Below are positions 2,677 through 54,071 of a DNA stretch of 64,000 nt, one piece after another. The stretch comes from an uncultured delta proteobacterium (GTDB taxonomy: Bacteria > Desulfobacterota > Desulfobulbia > Desulfobulbales > Desulfocapsaceae). Both the position numbers and the translations under genes were made by a program. The stretch spans positions 1-64,000 of the forward strand of contig CAIQWD010000089.1 of the NCBI GenBank assembly GCA_903875445.1, given 5' to 3'. Every line of letters starts with the position of its first letter. The first letter of the stretch is position 1. The notes under the pieces were generated by a model, which was given only the letters and a program-made list of their open reading frames with translations, was not told where the DNA came from and searched no databases.

Positions 2677-4068
2677 GTGAGGCACCCTCTTCTGGTAATT
2701 GGCGGCGGTCTTTCCGGACTGGCCGCTGCCATTCGAGCAGCACGGTTTATCCCCGAAATTCTTCTCGTAGAAAAACACTCCCGACTGGGCGGACTCAACT
2801 CATATTTTTATAGAAATAACACCCTTTATGAGACCGGACTGCATGCCATTACCAACTATGCCGACCCCGGCGATAGGCAGGCTCCGATAAATAGGCTGCT
2901 ACGACAACTGAAACTGCAGCGAAAGGATTTTACCTTTTGTCAACAGATGCAAAGCGAAGTTGTTTTTCGCCATCTTGAGTCGTTAACATTTTCTAACGAT
3001 GTTGGCGTCTTCAACACAGAAGTGCGAAACAAATTCCCGCGAGCAGCCGTCAGGTTTCAAAAAATGCTCGATTTTATAAAGCATTTCGATCCATTTCTGC
3101 CATCTCCTTTTCGTTCAACCAGATGTTTTCTGGCAGAAATACTCCAGGCCCCGCTCCTTGCCGAGATGATTCTTTGCCCGCTCATGTTTTATGGTTCCAG
3201 CCGGGAAAATGACATAGATCTCAGCCAGTTTGTCATAATGTTCAGAGCAATTTTTTTGGAAGGCATGTTTCGTCCTTTGGGCAGCATTAAAGATCTGATT
3301 GATCTCTTAACCTGTCATTACCTTGAACTGGGTGGACACGTAAGGAAAAATTGCGGCGTTAAAAAAATCCTTACCAGGAAAAACAGTGCCATAGGCGTGG
3401 AACTTGATGACGGAGAAATATTGGAATGTGACTATATCCTCTCCACCATCGGCCATGAGGAAACCCTCAGGCTTATTTCGGGTACTAGAGTTTCAAATTC
3501 GACTAACCTCACCCGACTCGGCTTTGTCGAAACGATGTATCAACTGCCTCAACAATCACCAACAACTCTTCCGAAAAACAAGACAATAATTTTTTTTAAT
3601 GACGGAGAGAAATTTCTCTATGAAAATCCATTGGATTTCGTAGATTTCCGGAGTGGCGTCATTTGTTTTCCGGGGAGCTTTCAAGGTATTCCCCAAAAGA
3701 GTATGATGGAAATTCGCTCGACCCATTTGGCAAACTACGGCAAATGGAAACACCTTTCGACAACACCTGACCAATATTCCGATAAAAAACAGGATACAGC
3801 CCGCCATTCCGCGCAAATGCTGGAGAATATGATTGGCAGTTTTGCGACAAATATTGTATATGAAAACACCTTCACTCCTGTTACCATTGAACGTTATACA
3901 GTAAAGATCAACGGAGCCATCTATGGCAGCCCGGAAAAAATAAAAGATGGTAATATCGGCTACCCCAATCTCTTTCTTGCCGGAACGGACCAAGGCTTTT
4001 TGGGAATTATCGGCTCCATGCTTAGTGGAGTTTCGATCGTCAATCAACACATCCTGCCAAAACTTTAG
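2677..4068 (+). CDS. CrtI/phytoene-desaturase-like FAD-dependent oxidoreductase (first of two)
   Basis: 463 aa. The N-terminal dinucleotide-binding fold is clear: Gly9-x-Gly11-x-x-Gly14 and an acidic end to strand two (Glu32 in LLVEKH), followed by SRLGGLNS as in carotenoid desaturases and amine oxidases. The C-terminus has the FAD-contact segment LFLAGTDQGFLGIIGSMLSG. The start is GTG at 2677, four bases after the ACP stop; the ATG at 2672 is closed at once. Family enzymes desaturate, isomerise or saturate polyene chains. Next to an ACP and FAS-II-like genes, the likely substrate is an acyl chain rather than a carotenoid, since no phytoene synthase is present here. Substrate and reaction are inferred. 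Confidence 0.85.
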   Translation: MRHPLLVIGGGLSGLAAAIRAARFIPEILLVEKHSRLGGLNSYFYRNNTLYETGLHAITNYADPGDRQAPINRLLRQLKLQRKDFTFCQQMQSEVVFRHLESLTFSNDVGVFNTEVRNKFPRAAVRFQKMLDFIKHFDPFLPSPFRSTRCFLAEILQAPLLAEMILCPLMFYGSSRENDIDLSQFVIMFRAIFLEGMFRPLGSIKDLIDLLTCHYLELGGHVRKNCGVKKILTRKNSAIGVELDDGEILECDYILSTIGHEETLRLISGTRVSNSTNLTRLGFVETMYQLPQQSPTTLPKNKTIIFFNDGEKFLYENPLDFVDFRSGVICFPGSFQGIPQKSMMEIRSTHLANYGKWKHLSTTPDQYSDKKQDTARHSAQMLENMIGSFATNIVYENTFTPVTIERYTVKINGAIYGSPEKIKDGNIGYPNLFLAGTDQGFLGIIGSMLSGVSIVNQHILPKL

Positions 4069-4092
4069 ATCCTTTCCTCAAGTCGTTATCCT

Positions 4093-5496
4093 ATGCCTGT
4101 CTCATTTTCTCAACTTGCCGAACAATATGACGTGATAGTTGTTGGTTCGGGTCTTGGCGGGCTAACTACCGCCAATCGCTTGGCGTACTGCGGGCATAAG
4201 GTCCTCCTTCTGGAATTTCATCACCGGCTGGGTGGGCTTGCCACCTGGTTCAAACGACGCGGGCATATTTTCGATGTTTCCCTGCACGGTTTTCCCTACG
4301 GCATGCTCAAAACCTGCAAAAAATATTGGAACAAAGCAATAACGGACTCAATCGTCCAGCTCAAAAATATTGTCTTTGATAATCCCCAATTTTCCTTGCG
4401 TACAACCTTTGACAAAGAAGACTTTACCCGGTTACTCCAAGGTCATTTCAAAATTCCCGGTACGACTATCGACCGTTTTTTTTCGGTTGTAGCCGGCATG
4501 AATTTTTATGATGATCAGACCATGACCACGAGGGAATTGTTCAACGATTTTTTCCCGGGCAGGTCTGATGTACATCGGCTCCTGATGGAACCGATAACCT
4601 ATGCCAACGGGTCAACACTTGATGATCCTGCAATAACCTATGGCATTGTATTTTCAAACTTTATGAACAAAGGAGTTTACACCTTTGAAGGCGGTACCGA
4701 CAGACTGATTGGTTTGATGACCGCCGAGTTGGAAAAAAACGGTGTAACTATCTGTACCAATTCAAAGGTGGAAAAAATTATCATTGAAAGAGGTAGGGTT
4801 CGGGGAGTTGAAGTATTAGGAAAAACCATCGCTGCTAAAGCGGTAGTGTCCAACAGCGGAATTACCAACACCATCAATAATCTTACAGATCGTCAGGCTT
4901 ATTCCGATGATTTTCTTGAAAAAGCAGACAAGATAAGGGTTAACACCTCAAGTTGTCAGGTCTATTTCGGTATTAAGGAAATGGAAACGATCGATGATGT
5001 CGGAGACCTCCTTTTCACTTCCTCCGCCCCGGAATTCGATTCCGAGGAGTTACTCGATAAGCACTCACATTCAAAGACCTTTTCACTTTATTACCCGAAG
5101 ACGCGCCCTGGACAAAATCGATATACCATCGTCGCTTCTATGAACAGCCGCTTTGAAGACTGGGCGTACCTTGAGGAAACAAACTATCAGCAGGAAAAAC
5201 AGCTTTTGATAGACAGGACTCTTACCGATCTTGAACGCTATCTACCTGGTGTAAAAGATAAAATTGACTGGATGGAAGCGGCCACCCCAAGAACATTCAA
5301 CAGCTACACTCTGCACACCAAGGGTACATCTTTTGGCACAAAATTTGAAGGATTGAACGTTTCTCGGTCAATATTTAAAGAAGTTGCCGGACTTTTCCAT
5401 GTGGGATCGGTGGGAATTATCATGTCCGGCTGGCTAGGGGCGATTAACTATGGGGTTATCGTATCCAATGATGTCGATAGCTTTCTCCGTTCTTAG
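4093..5496 (+). CDS. CrtI/phytoene-desaturase-like FAD-dependent oxidoreductase (second of two)
   Basis: 467 aa, same architecture as the preceding gene but clearly divergent from it. Gly18-x-Gly20-x-x-Gly23 and Glu41 mark the FAD-binding fold, followed by HRLGGLATWF. The C-terminal FAD segment is GLFHVGSVGIIMSGWLG. ATG at 4093 lies 24 bases after the previous stop and has no strong ribosome-binding site. Its stop abuts the start of the FabG-like gene, which shows that the genes work as a unit. Two non-identical CrtI-like enzymes suggest two successive redox or isomerisation steps, or a heterodimer. The substrate cannot be read from the sequence. Confidence 0.85.
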   Translation: MPVSFSQLAEQYDVIVVGSGLGGLTTANRLAYCGHKVLLLEFHHRLGGLATWFKRRGHIFDVSLHGFPYGMLKTCKKYWNKAITDSIVQLKNIVFDNPQFSLRTTFDKEDFTRLLQGHFKIPGTTIDRFFSVVAGMNFYDDQTMTTRELFNDFFPGRSDVHRLLMEPITYANGSTLDDPAITYGIVFSNFMNKGVYTFEGGTDRLIGLMTAELEKNGVTICTNSKVEKIIIERGRVRGVEVLGKTIAAKAVVSNSGITNTINNLTDRQAYSDDFLEKADKIRVNTSSCQVYFGIKEMETIDDVGDLLFTSSAPEFDSEELLDKHSHSKTFSLYYPKTRPGQNRYTIVASMNSRFEDWAYLEETNYQQEKQLLIDRTLTDLERYLPGVKDKIDWMEAATPRTFNSYTLHTKGTSFGTKFEGLNVSRSIFKEVAGLFHVGSVGIIMSGWLGAINYGVIVSNDVDSFLRS

Positions 5497-50438: not shown

Positions 50439-52271
50439 TCAGAGCGGCAGCATCACCCGAACCTCGGTATACTCATTCGGTGTACTGAAAATCTTCATCG
50501 CTCCACCATGCTCCTCGACGATCTTGGCGGATAAGGCAAGTCCCAATCCTGTCCCATTGCTTTTTGTGGTAAAATAGGGGTCGAACACCCGCTGAAGATT
50601 TTCCTGGGGAATGCCTACCCCGCTGTCCCTTATACTGACAACGATCATTCCGCCATCACGCTCCGTCCGTACGGTTAAAACACCGCCATTCGGCATCGCC
50701 TGTATGGCGTTTAGAAAAAGATTCAGCAATACCTGGTTACATTTATCTCGGTCAATCTGAACCATGGGTAATTCCGCCGCAAGTCCAAGAACTAGAGTGA
50801 TTTTATAGGATTCCGCATCGATCTGCACCAGCGACACGGTTTTTTTAATTATGTCGTCTATTGCCGTCGGTTCCCGAGTCAGCTGACCGGGCCGTGCATA
50901 ATCCAACAATTCGCCGATACTGCGATTCAGCCTTTCCACCTCTTTCACCAGAATATCGGCAGTTTCCACCCCACCAGTGGATGCAATTACCTGTGATTTC
51001 AAGAGCACCGCCAGTCCCTTAATAGAACTCAGCGGATTTCTCAGTTCATGAGCGACTCCGGCAGCCATCTTTCCAAGGACCGCCAAACGTTCACTGCGCT
51101 GCAACTCCTTTTCTAGTGATTTGACCTCTGTGAGATCTCGAATAAGCAGCACCTCTCCGGCCAAACGGCCATCATTATCCAATACGACCATCGAGGCCAA
51201 TTGCAAGGTCATCGGCTTTTTCGGGTCTAAATCCAAGGGGATTTCTTTCTGTCTTTCGGCCTTTTCCGCATGGTTATTGGCAAAAAACATCTTAGCCAAT
51301 CCTGGTGGCAGGCAGATTTCCGGTATTTTCCCTCGGATACGGTCGCTCTCTATACCAAGGACCTCTCCGGCTGCGTCGTTACAGACGCGAATCACTCCCT
51401 GGCTGTCGGTGGCAATGAGACCGACGGGTAAAGAGGAGACAAGGATATCGGTAAATGCCCGAATTTGACCGAGACTTTGCTGAGAACCCTTTAAACCTCT
51501 AAGGGTTAAATAGGAGAGTGCTCCGGCAATACCAACCAGAAGTGTGGCAATGGAGAGGATAATTATCTGCAGAAACTGTCGCCTGAGCGACGAATTGAAT
51601 TGCTCAAAATCGAGCTGCACGACATATATGAGCTGTTTGTCAAGCAAACGTTTCATCTCCTCCTGCATGACAGCAAAATGTGGATTGTTGGCAAATCTTC
51701 GCATCATCTGCCCCCGGCCAGGCCCCCGGTCCAGGAATTCCGGATGGTCCGGAGTATTCGGTGGCACATGCCAGGCGGCAATCTGAAACCTTTGATTTGA
51801 CTTATCACCTTGCTTTTCCGTGATGATCCGGGAAACAAACGGATGTGGGCCTCCGGATTTCAAAGATTTGGTAAATGCCAGAGTCGCTTGATCAATGGCA
51901 CTGTTGCCGGCATTCAGCCCCGCAGCAGAGACAATCGCCCCTTCCTGGTCAATGAGCTGGACCGATTCGACCCCGGGTTGCTCAACCGCCTGCTCCATTG
52001 CCGCCCGAACCTGATCTTCCCAGTGGATCAAAGGATCGGATGAACGGAGATTATCGCGCATTGCCTCACGGGCAGAGCTGTTGATAAAGCGCATCAGGGT
52101 AAGTCCCTTTTGCACCAAGGCCTCCCCCATCAATTCCTTTTCCCGCTGATAATTACTGACTGCAAATAAAGCCAGCAACAGCAACAGAAGGGAACAGGCG
52201 ACGGCCAGCATCCATGGAGAAAAACTCAGCAACAGGTTGCTGCGCTTAGGACTCTTTACTAACGGCGTCAT
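50439..52271 (-). CDS. Membrane sensor histidine kinase (PAS-HisKA-HATPase), orphan
   Basis: 610 aa from ATG 52271; TTG 52289 has AAGG upstream and is also plausible. Two transmembrane helices (about 20-38 and 234-256) flank a periplasmic sensor of some 190 residues that contains a Met/Arg/Pro-rich stretch. Then come a PAS domain, HisKA with the phospho-His in GVAHELRNPLSSIKG, and HATPase_c with N- and G-boxes (LLNLFLNAIQAMPNGG; SGVGIPQENL; GTGLGLALS). It resembles ZraS/NtrB-type kinases that work with sigma-54 activators. It overlaps the 3' end of the upstream gene by 26 bases. No response regulator is adjacent. Confidence 0.9.
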   Translation of the reverse strand: MTPLVKSPKRSNLLLSFSPWMLAVACSLLLLLLALFAVSNYQREKELMGEALVQKGLTLMRFINSSAREAMRDNLRSSDPLIHWEDQVRAAMEQAVEQPGVESVQLIDQEGAIVSAAGLNAGNSAIDQATLAFTKSLKSGGPHPFVSRIITEKQGDKSNQRFQIAAWHVPPNTPDHPEFLDRGPGRGQMMRRFANNPHFAVMQEEMKRLLDKQLIYVVQLDFEQFNSSLRRQFLQIIILSIATLLVGIAGALSYLTLRGLKGSQQSLGQIRAFTDILVSSLPVGLIATDSQGVIRVCNDAAGEVLGIESDRIRGKIPEICLPPGLAKMFFANNHAEKAERQKEIPLDLDPKKPMTLQLASMVVLDNDGRLAGEVLLIRDLTEVKSLEKELQRSERLAVLGKMAAGVAHELRNPLSSIKGLAVLLKSQVIASTGGVETADILVKEVERLNRSIGELLDYARPGQLTREPTAIDDIIKKTVSLVQIDAESYKITLVLGLAAELPMVQIDRDKCNQVLLNLFLNAIQAMPNGGVLTVRTERDGGMIVVSIRDSGVGIPQENLQRVFDPYFTTKSNGTGLGLALSAKIVEEHGGAMKIFSTPNEYTEVRVMLPL

Positions 52272-53949
52272 AATTGGCAATTTTTTCAAGAATAACCTTG
52301 GAAATCATATAGGTGGGAACGATTCCCTCATCACCCATCGGTCCGGATGCCAGGGTCTGGCCGCTCACCAACGGATTATCCGAGGCATAATAGGCATATC
52401 TGGTTTTCATCGTGGCCGGGATATGACCCTGAATTATTGCTCCACTGATCGCCCGCTGATAATGCCCACCTTCCATTTCCAAGCCAACCGCCCGCCAGGC
52501 GGAAGAATGAAAACGTTGGAGAACATCGCGGTTCTGCAGCGATGTACCGAGAACGGTCACCATAGGACCGGTATATACCGTCACCGTGTCATCAAAATCG
52601 GCGGCCGTAAGATCGTTATCGACAATGTAGTTGTCGGCGGTTCCCTCCATCACATGGGCCGTGGCAAGCATGATATCACCTTTTTTACCCGGCAACACCC
52701 CAGCTTTCCCCATGATCGAAATAGACTGGATGGAAAGCGATTTAACCACCCCGCCATAACTATCTGGATGCAGCAGTTCGTACATGATATCAAATGCTTG
52801 GGTACCAAATGCATAATCGATAACGAGAAGCACCGGTTGGGTTTCCTTGAGATAATGATAGTTCATTTTCAGAGAGGAATGGAGATGATGTTGGTCAAGC
52901 TGCGACAGGTCCATAATATTGACATCAATCGTCGAACCTGATTCATCCGCCCGAAAGGTAAAACCATGCTTGACCGCATAGGCCTCAACATCTTTTTCTC
53001 TATCGCGAACCGCTCGCACCATTGCATAGAGATCGTCGGGCACCGTTTCCCCGCATTCGATCAATGTTCCCGGTCCATAGAGGAGATTTCGCATGGAATG
53101 CATATTGGCACTGACCACATGGATCGGTCGATCGAGAAGCTGCAAACGACCGAGAGATGCCTTCAAGGCCCCGGCCCAGAGAGCCGCATGGGTTTGATGA
53201 TCGATCATCTCATGTAAGGAGGGAGTGAAGTAAACCACCAGTTCGTTTTTCTTGGCACTTTGTTCTTCTATCACTCTTTTGCCGATACCGTAGATGATCG
53301 CAAAAAGGCTGCTGTTGGTATTGTGTTCCTGCCGGTTTTTCTCAAGATGTTCATAGGCTTCCCACGTCTCTTTGTAAGTCCTCCCGAGAATGATGGAGAG
53401 ATTCCAGATGGCCTGCTCCAATTCCTCGCCAACCAGCGACTCTTCTATGGAAACGATACGCTCCAATTCCGTCCATTCGGAACTTACCCCTTCGGCTCTG
53501 TTGCAGACCTGTCGATAAATCTTCCAGGCCTCAATATTAAGAAAGGTGATATGGGTAAGAATGTCATATATCTCGCTTTTCCCGGTGGTTATAACAAAGC
53601 AATACTCTTTTTCCGAAACCGCATACGATACCCTTCTTCTTTTCAGAGGGACAATTTTCGCAAATGAAGTGTCCTTAAAATCTTCCTGGGCGGTAAGGGT
53701 TATCCTCGTACACTTTTCAATCCCTTTCGGCATCCTGTCAAAGACATACTCCAAACCATGTAATTCGACGACCCGGGTATCGGACATCGAACCATAAATT
53801 TCCGGACTAAGCAATTTCAAGGCCTCAGCCAATTTTTCCCCAATCCTCCCGGAAGGTTTATAGGAACCCTGGAGGGTCATGGAATCGGCGAGGATTTTGA
53901 AGGTTCGTATGGCAATCCGTGCTTTTTGCGATTTGGATAACTCCTGCAT
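52246..53949 (-). CDS. Uncharacterised protein with nucleoside-phosphorylase-like C-terminus (possibly DUF6909)
   Basis: 567 aa. The N-terminal 330 residues are mostly helical with no motif I recognise. The C-terminal part (about 340-560) shows the nucleoside-phosphorylase pattern: SISIMGKAGVLPGKKGDIML (like the GTAGxL...GDIV stretch) and WRAVGLEMEGGHYQRAI (like the DMEGAA stretch). Phosphorylase-type activity or ligand binding is inferred from these motifs only; key residues such as the N-terminal phosphate Arg/His were not identified. ATG 53949 has GAGGAG upstream. It overlaps the histidine kinase gene, so both may be in one signalling unit. The family name is recalled, not checked. Confidence 0.6.
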   Translation of the reverse strand: MQELSKSQKARIAIRTFKILADSMTLQGSYKPSGRIGEKLAEALKLLSPEIYGSMSDTRVVELHGLEYVFDRMPKGIEKCTRITLTAQEDFKDTSFAKIVPLKRRRVSYAVSEKEYCFVITTGKSEIYDILTHITFLNIEAWKIYRQVCNRAEGVSSEWTELERIVSIEESLVGEELEQAIWNLSIILGRTYKETWEAYEHLEKNRQEHNTNSSLFAIIYGIGKRVIEEQSAKKNELVVYFTPSLHEMIDHQTHAALWAGALKASLGRLQLLDRPIHVVSANMHSMRNLLYGPGTLIECGETVPDDLYAMVRAVRDREKDVEAYAVKHGFTFRADESGSTIDVNIMDLSQLDQHHLHSSLKMNYHYLKETQPVLLVIDYAFGTQAFDIMYELLHPDSYGGVVKSLSIQSISIMGKAGVLPGKKGDIMLATAHVMEGTADNYIVDNDLTAADFDDTVTVYTGPMVTVLGTSLQNRDVLQRFHSSAWRAVGLEMEGGHYQRAISGAIIQGHIPATMKTRYAYYASDNPLVSGQTLASGPMGDEGIVPTYMISKVILEKIANYDAVSKES

Positions 53950-54071
53950 AAAATCTCCTCAATACAAGTCGCCGTATTTATTTTTTGCCGCAATTGTAGA
54001 ATGGTACAGAGTTATAGAGAAAAACAGAGAGGAATGGGCGAGACCAGCTGTCCGGAAGGCTACCGACAGCA

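Follow-up and report, generated by a model that had tools for sequence, protein, structure and literature searches.

The question raised by this locus is what the 567-residue protein encoded at 52246..53949 of the window does, and whether the overlapping sensor kinase gene has any part in it. By the window we mean the whole stretch of 64,000 nucleotides that was analysed. The gene lies on the minus strand, as do all the features given below, and its coordinates include the stop codon. The open reading frame begins with ATG and there is a Shine-Dalgarno-like AGGAG, read from the sequence, five bases 5' of it (53955..53959). The product matches Pfam family DUF6909 (PF21850) with an E-value of 1.6e-60 and 205.4 bits, against a curated cut-off of 27. 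This is the single DUF6909 match within the window's genome, and the family is matched by all 59 sequences in our alignment (58 of the 80 collected loci plus the window protein). A chance open reading frame is excluded because the sequence is conserved in relatives, and 52246-53949 is a real gene, as a preliminary description had held. That description called the protein unknown. The family is known, although it stands in Pfam without a stated function, and no paper naming DUF6909 or PF21850 was found in the open-licence literature searched.

DUF6909 splits into a first branch, which includes the window protein, and a very distant second branch, with ~21% identity between them; PF21850 bit scores are 484-542 in the second branch and 205 for the window protein. 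Conservation was first aligned over 112 rows (109 first-branch and three second-branch), representing 106 distinct genes, and the final residue counts given here are over 114 rows (109 first-branch and all five members of the second). Within two bacterial phyla the gene is frequent in some groups. It is present in 36 of 247 sampled Bacteroidota genomes. From the window's class 192 genomes were sampled and 64 have it, all 64 belonging to one bacterial family, four genomes of which are listed without it in the same sample. A search of viral contigs with the window protein as query gave no relative. Among plasmids, relatives were found on just two Persicobacter replicons and none belonged to the second branch.

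Our preferred reading, to which we give a probability of about 0.5, is that DUF6909 is a two-domain nucleosidase-type enzyme of the PNP/UDP superfamily that acts on purine nucleosides or nucleotides. The predicted model of the whole protein (pLDDT 91.2, pTM 0.89) has a domain with the fold of this superfamily at residues ~253-565 (52264..53193 for residues 253-562). In a VIA fold search this domain matched the PNP 9qh2 with Z 19.7 over 212 residues and the AMP nucleosidase 1t8r with Z 18.8 over 236 residues, the 50 best rows having Z 18.5-19.7 over 196-237 residues. Foldseek gave 249 matches at E<=0.001 for the window protein model. The top rows by E-value were AMP nucleosidase 2guw (E 2.7e-8), then futalosine hydrolase and MTA/SAH nucleosidase, with PNP close behind. 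With an rmsd of more than 20 A over 495-523 columns, the alignment to 2guw does not amount to a true superposition of both domains, and MTAN and PNP, which have one domain each, give better TM-scores than 2guw. On the predicted structure, the C-terminal part can be placed with confidence in the PNP/UDP phosphorylase superfamily. The nucleoside-phosphorylase-like C terminus of the preliminary description is borne out by the invariant catalytic positions as well as by this fold, with Z up to 19.7, but its extent has to be revised: the domain takes up about 310 residues, not the last 220, and what precedes it is not a helical part of 330 residues but a separate domain of about 250, made up of nine helices and five short strands.

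Sequence models place the protein less readily. DUF6909 is the sole Pfam match of the window protein at E<=10, PNP_UDP_1 not being matched, and 17 of the 59 family members match PNP_UDP_1 weakly at E<=1 (best E 0.0039). None of the 59 matches the AMP nucleosidase, PNP or MTAN models of NCBIfam at E<=10; the same library correctly names E. coli Amn and the short-form AMP nucleosidase of Parabacteroides. A sequence search of solved structures for DUF6909 relatives returned nothing credible. A profile of the C-terminal domain was used to rank 2,260 open reading frames outside DUF6909, and seven of 17 AMP nucleosidases were among the 20 best, together with one of four PNP/UDP-type and none of two MTAN-type proteins, although even the top rows had E-values of 0.39 and up. 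The other ten AMP nucleosidases were at ranks 27-38 (three) and 209-840 (four) or were not listed (three). With 40 column-shuffled control profiles there was no AMP nucleosidase in the top 20 in 38 cases, and one and two in the others. Profile alignments with AMP nucleosidases fell short of significance (E 0.019-0.13, probability below 3%). Single templates compared with the full profile were likewise insignificant: uridine phosphorylase gave E 0.016, short AMP nucleosidase 0.04, long AMP nucleosidase 0.13 and DeoD 0.31. An MTAN row (E 0.025) was taken as noise, the match sitting in the front domain. By the ranking test the nearest relative is probably AMP nucleosidase, although the likeness is weak. 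The motifs are collinear, but since the alignment is insignificant its use was confined to locating residues.

Several residues of the proposed pocket are conserved. E491-M492-E493 (52471..52479), which includes the superfamily's ribose-binding ME pair, and S523-D524 (52378..52383), part of SDNPL and site of the superfamily's catalytic Asp, are kept in 109/109 first-branch and 5/5 second-branch rows, M492, E493 and D524 being unchanged in all 114. The same holds for K415 of GKAG (residues 414-417, 52699..52710) and for N282 and H284 of N-x-H-S (residues 282-285, 53095..53106); S285 is kept in 108/109 and 4/5 rows, the second-branch protein of genome G610 having Gly. The ME pair and the catalytic Asp were matched by motif order and a weak profile alignment, not by residue-level structural superposition. 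The motifs reported in the preliminary description are present, but they are spelled GKAG...GDIM (414-427) and EMEGGH (491-496) rather than GTAG...GDIV and DMEGAA. Conservation of the active site is no proof that the protein is active.

AMP nucleosidases share much of this. Both the long form (E. coli Amn, 1t8r/2guw) and the short Bacteroidota forms have the same catalytic-domain fold, ME pair and catalytic Asp, and motif alignment adds a first-strand Asn, GK-G (short form) and SD-P-L/M. In AMP nucleosidase the ME pair is M404/E405 (PMC9584410). The same paper describes the role of N205, and N282 may correspond to this residue, as we propose by eye. At the SDNPL site the AMP nucleosidases compared read SDKPL, SDKPM, SDNPL, SDNPM, SDLPL and SDVPL. 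Unlike AMP nucleosidase, DUF6909 has no match to a curated model, and phosphate-binding residues were not found in place. PMC9584410 gives R381, K436, H188' and Y189' as the residues for the 5'-phosphate, and these have no clear conserved counterpart in the DUF6909 alignment, itself weak here: K436 falls on T532, R381 falls near R474/D475, and H188/Y189 are unplaced. Three second-branch proteins were compared at the position of R474, and all have Trp.

The other superfamily members compare as follows. MTA/SAH nucleosidase and futalosine hydrolase are hydrolases with the fold in common (Z 19.0 and 18.8), but their chains of ~230 residues are without the front domain of DUF6909. Hexameric PNP (DeoD) and uridine phosphorylase also share the fold (Z 19.7 and 19.4), as well as E-M-E and S-D. 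DUF6909 could be a phosphorylase, exchanging the base with inorganic phosphate in either direction and, in an operon with a permease, turning imported bases into nucleosides. PNPs are the best VIA rows, tied with AMP nucleosidase, uridine phosphorylase is the best single-sequence template with the full profile, at an E-value that is not significant, and the synthetic direction makes sense beside the purine-type permease of the second branch (see below). We nevertheless consider it unlikely. DUF6909 differs from these phosphorylases in its extra 252-residue domain and in its phosphate loop. The glycine-rich loop of E. coli PNP carries a phosphate-binding Arg and Ser, which we take to be R87 and S90, whereas the window protein, aligned by motif only, reads I-M-G-K-A-G there. 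A Lys at this place occurs in short AMP nucleosidases of Bacteroidota, with whose GKCG the GKAG aligns in a profile alignment that is not significant by itself. DeoD and uridine phosphorylase types are also fewer than AMP nucleosidases at the top of the sequence ranking.

The N-terminal or front domain (residues 1-252, 53194..53949) was modelled alone by AF2 with pLDDT 92.4 and pTM 0.91. Searches with Foldseek and VIA showed no resemblance to solved structures (best Foldseek E 0.35, best VIA Z 2.5); the best VIA rows, for teneurin at Z 2.5 and for uridine phosphorylases at Z ~2, were taken as noise. The long-form AMP nucleosidase also has an extra N-terminal domain, and the front domain of DUF6909 was not recognised as being of Amn type: the Amn domain is absent among the VIA matches listed, which does not exclude such a domain. 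There is a conserved arginine run in the front domain, KRRR (residues 103-106, 53632..53643). R104 and R106 are kept in 109/109 first-branch rows, K103 in 105/109 and R105 in 104/109; in the second branch RRR is kept in 5/5 and the Lys in 4/5, the protein of G610 reading ARRR. By charge and conservation, KRRR is a putative phosphate-binding patch.

Returning to the nucleosidase reading, we infer the reaction and substrate as follows. The C-terminal domain would split the bond between a purine base and ribose. It would probably do so as a hydrolase rather than a phosphorylase, because the pocket motifs (N282, GKAG, EGT, E-M-E and SDNPL) are nearer those of AMP nucleosidases than those of phosphorylases. 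The substrate may be a purine nucleoside, though a purine nucleotide is more likely; the phosphate of the latter could be held by the KRRR of the front domain.

The gene downstream, at 50439..52289, encodes a PAS-HisKA-HATPase sensor kinase by Pfam, for which the best NCBIfam models, ZraS and AtoS, are both below cut-off. The overlap with the end of the DUF6909 gene that was described earlier does exist, on the same strand, and is of 44 bases if the kinase starts at TTG 52289 or 26 if it starts at ATG 52271. This kinase adjoins the DUF6909 gene in 41/41 testable loci of the window's family, as assigned from names and identity, and in 0/62 elsewhere, where at least two genomes are counted twice (L087/L116 and L090/L113). 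Loci with under 300 bases of flank (L052 in the family and L151, L156 and L166 elsewhere) were left out of this count. An unselected recount over all 80 loci found the kinase in 22 and not in 53, with the flank too short in five. Additionally, there is a kinase match (E<=1e-8) in 20 of 32 genomes with no DUF6909 match, three of these being weak (G307, G179 and G259). Genomes without the gene thus often have this kinase or one closely related to it. The pair is therefore conserved within the family but not across the range of DUF6909. In a single bacterial family the kinase gene and DUF6909 are neighbours in an operon, and the signalling link that had been guessed from position is unsupported.

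These data bear on two further explanations. In one, the protein is a catalytically dead sensor whose pocket binds a purine and whose front domain relays the signal, to the kinase in the window's family. The operon with the kinase throughout that family and a front domain that is large, conserved and unmatched in the fold searches would fit such a role, but kinase and gene each occur without the other, and the invariance of the catalytic Asp and Glu positions is unusual for a pure binder; we think this decidedly unlikely. The other would make the protein a nucleosidase of nucleoside triphosphates or signalling nucleotides, serving as an effector in stress or immunity under the control of the kinase. 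Immune effectors that cleave ATP exist, and the Detocs type is a kinase-controlled PNP effector; a polyphosphate could be bound by the run of three to four basic residues, and in the window's family the sensor kinase gene is at hand. This we hold to be very improbable. PADLOC gave no match at E<=10 for the window protein or for locus L056, the rows for the kinase and L217 being at chance level, and Pfam finds no receiver domain in the window protein. The kinase is absent beside the gene outside the family, and the occurrence of the gene within it is unlike that of patchy defence genes.

An AMP-nucleosidase-like gene is present in 36 of the 192 class genomes and no genome has both this and DUF6909, the two counts being presumed to be on the same genomes from their equal totals (192 genomes, 62 genera, 146 good) and their matching range of genome identifiers. 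The lack of overlap is confounded by ancestry, since all 64 DUF6909 genomes are of one family. In Bacteroidota, 5/14 DUF6909 genomes also have a clear AMP nucleosidase, which rules out strict replacement as a general rule.

In the second branch there is a permease gene on the same strand immediately upstream of DUF6909 in 5/5 genomes, from two bacterial families. It is Xan_ur_permease by Pfam in the two that were scanned and was assigned by sequence likeness in the other three. Here the permease may carry the free base. Loci of the window protein's branch showed no such permease link. A fuller version of the nucleosidase reading, which we put forward tentatively and with considerable doubt, is that DUF6909 could be an unrecognised class of purine-nucleotide nucleosidase, in which an AMP-nucleosidase-like domain is joined to a front domain of new fold that grips the phosphates through the arginine run. 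It would act as a drain for adenylate or purine nucleotides in a Desulfobulbales family without AMP nucleosidase and in many Bacteroidota, with base transport coupled to it in the second branch. If nucleotides are cleaved, cells would have, in addition to AMP nucleosidase and AMP deaminase, another means of setting their adenylate pool. The superfamily placement, the named catalytic residues and the operon with a purine-type permease make DUF6909 directly testable.

Finally, the Bacteroidota neighbourhoods (31 loci, L151-L181, and L222-L225) were inspected by eye and no recurrent purine genes were found. The only pairs seen there are short and confined to a lineage. Two examples, named by eye, are a GH3-like gene that lies before DUF6909 in three flavobacterial loci and an MsrA-like gene that is paired with it in three Algoriphagus loci.

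The open reading frame at 52246-53949 on the minus strand has exactly the coordinates proposed in the preliminary description and encodes 567 residues; an AGGAG can be read 5 bases upstream of its ATG. Pfam assigns the protein to DUF6909 (PF21850, E 1.6e-60), described there as a 'family of unknown function', and there is a single match to it in its own genome. NCBIfam has no model for it, and neither DUF6909 nor PF21850 is mentioned in the open-licence literature searched, a scope outside which most subscription papers lie.

The AlphaFold2 model of the full protein (59 sequences) has a mean pLDDT of 91.2 and a pTM of 0.89. The top Foldseek row by E-value among solved structures is the AMP nucleosidase 2guw (E 2.7e-8), followed by futalosine hydrolase and MTA/SAH nucleosidase and then, only slightly lower, by purine nucleoside phosphorylases (PNPs). 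Because the long 2guw alignment has an rmsd of more than 20 Å, the true match is limited to the catalytic domain. In VIA, modelled residues 253-565 align with PNP at Z 19.7 over 212 residues (2.6 Å), which bears out the likeness of the C-terminus to nucleoside phosphorylases noted earlier; the same residues give Z 19.4 with uridine phosphorylase and Z 18.8 over 236 residues with AMP nucleosidase. Rows no more than 1 Z apart were counted as tied, so fold alone does not decide among these three. Residues 1-252, predicted separately with a pLDDT of 92.4, have no fold match (best Foldseek E 0.35, best VIA Z 2.5), which does not in itself prove a new fold.

The account of AMP nucleosidase in PMC9584410 gives N205, W383, M404, E405 and D428 as base and sugar contacts, and R381 and K436, with H188/Y189 from the neighbouring chain, as phosphate contacts; M404, E405 and D428 are described as common to more distant relatives. 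These three lie in motifs matching those of M492, E493 and D524 in DUF6909, which are invariant in 109/109 rows of the first branch (the window protein and its relatives) and in all five proteins of a distant second branch. N282, H284, K415, R104 and R106 are equally invariant in both. The first conservation count held 112 rows, representing 106 distinct genes. Within the KRRR run (103-106) no position is kept in fewer than 104 of the 109 first-branch rows; the second branch has RRR in 5/5 and the lysine in 4/5. By prediction and conservation, the protein combines a catalytic domain of the PNP superfamily, whose ribose-binding and acid site is intact, with a conserved front domain.

DUF6909 and the AMP nucleosidases share motifs in the same order (GKAG/GKCG, an EGT stretch, EME/DME and SDNPL/SDKPL). 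The profile alignments behind these motifs fall short of significance (E 0.019 to 0.13), and a template of uridine phosphorylase did at least as well (E 0.016). When 2,260 non-DUF6909 stop-to-stop ORFs of at least 150 codons, from the loci gathered here, were ranked with a profile of the C-terminal domain, the top 20 held 7/17 AMP nucleosidases, 1/4 PNP/UDP-type and 0/2 MTAN-type proteins. Of 40 column-shuffled profiles, 38 placed no AMP nucleosidase there, one placed 1 and another 2. Of the remaining ten AMP nucleosidases, three ranked 27-38, four ranked 209-840 and three were unlisted. Because AMP nucleosidases are mutually related, the seven carry less weight than seven independent observations would, and no row is significant by itself (best E 0.39). 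The ranking is firmer ground for the likeness than the profile alignments. No curated AMP nucleosidase model matches the DUF6909 protein, which may work like an AMP nucleosidase although it is not one by those models.

Proteins of the second branch share about 21% identity with the window protein and were seen in 5/63 genomes of another class. In all five a purine/xanthine-type permease gene lies directly upstream on the same strand. Two of the permeases were scanned with Pfam and are Xan_ur_permease (E 2.7e-31 and 4.1e-30); the other three were named by eye from sequence likeness, and the four compared with NCBIfam received no usable name. One of the five genomes also has guaB and guaA, identified by eye, near the permease gene on the opposite strand. 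We put the probability that the DUF6909 protein is a superfamily enzyme of the purine nucleosidase type at about 0.5. The motif likeness to AMP nucleosidases would favour hydrolysis over phosphorolysis, the permease operon of the second branch points to a purine substrate, and the charge and conservation of the arginine run suggest that it may hold phosphate. That it represents a new nucleosidase class cleaving nucleotides is a less likely proposal, with a chance of about a quarter.

DUF6909 matches occur in 64/192 sampled genomes of the window's class, all 64 in its own bacterial family, of which four genomes are listed in the sample without a match. They were also found in 19/395 genomes of the phylum sample and 36/247 of a Bacteroidota sample. 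A scan of named genomes with a Desulfobacterota relative as query gave at least 588 relatives; the best 80, which were kept, include other Desulfobacterota (e.g. Desulfonema and Desulfopila) and the Bacteroidota Larkinella, Spirosoma, Algoriphagus and Flammeovirga, whose proteins are 44-47% identical to the query along almost all of its length. One Bacteroidota member (L217, genome G756), possibly intermediate between the branches, gives a single continuous match to the entire Pfam model (191 bits), whereas the match is in two stretches in the other 35 matching genomes of its sample.

In the class sample, 36/192 genomes have an AMP-nucleosidase-like gene, none above the curated cut-off. All 36 belong to families other than the window's and none overlaps with the DUF6909 genomes, an absence of overlap that ancestry alone could explain. 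Among 14 Bacteroidota genomes with DUF6909, five have a clear AMP nucleosidase (E <1e-100), two have weak matches and seven have none. Because those five carry both, replacement of AMP nucleosidase by DUF6909 is suggested for Desulfobulbales only. At locus L154, a short AMP nucleosidase gene (about 3431-4201) lies some 3.8 kb from the DUF6909 gene. This genome is labelled Flavobacterium sp. SUN052, which may be wrong because it is 8.1 Mb and a neighbouring gene resembles one in Spirosoma. At L192 (G326:C35:39304-40038), and also at L095, a PNP gene and an amidohydrolase gene, both identified by eye, are located roughly 3-4 kb past the DUF6909 gene.

The downstream gene in the window's family encodes a PAS-HisKA-HATPase kinase by Pfam, best matched in NCBIfam by the ZraS and AtoS models, both below cut-off. 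The spacing is mostly an overlap or within about 50 bases (139 at locus L047), and close relatives with the same arrangement include the one in Desulfopila (Desulfocapsaceae in NCBI), which makes Desulfocapsaceae the probable family of the window as well. Upstream genes vary within the family, engB in some and a phosphoglycerate-mutase-like gene in others, and the pair is therefore kept better than its surroundings. The functional link proposed from this overlap is doubtful: the kinase adjoins DUF6909 in 41/41 own-family loci with enough flank but in 0/62 outside, and kinase matches occur in 20/32 genomes without a DUF6909 match (three of the 20 weak). In a recount without choice of loci, among the best 80 of at least 588 relatives, the kinase follows in 22, all of which share 59% or more identity with the window protein; it is absent in 53 and five could not be judged. 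Genome G283 has a remnant of DUF6909 (residues 515-559) preceding its kinase. Together, these observations make the pair a lineage-specific operon and not an obligate unit. Beside the kinase in three loci of genomes without a DUF6909 match there is a gene for a ZraP/CpxP-like small periplasmic protein, named by eye (L237, 5179-5685; L238, 5014-5463; L242, 5727-6224), which suggests that envelope-stress sensing is the older role of the kinase. The remnant in G283 (L241, contig C322, about 2126-2260) has a phosphoglycerate-mutase-like gene on one side and the kinase on the other, and is either a disrupted copy of the gene or an artefact of assembly.
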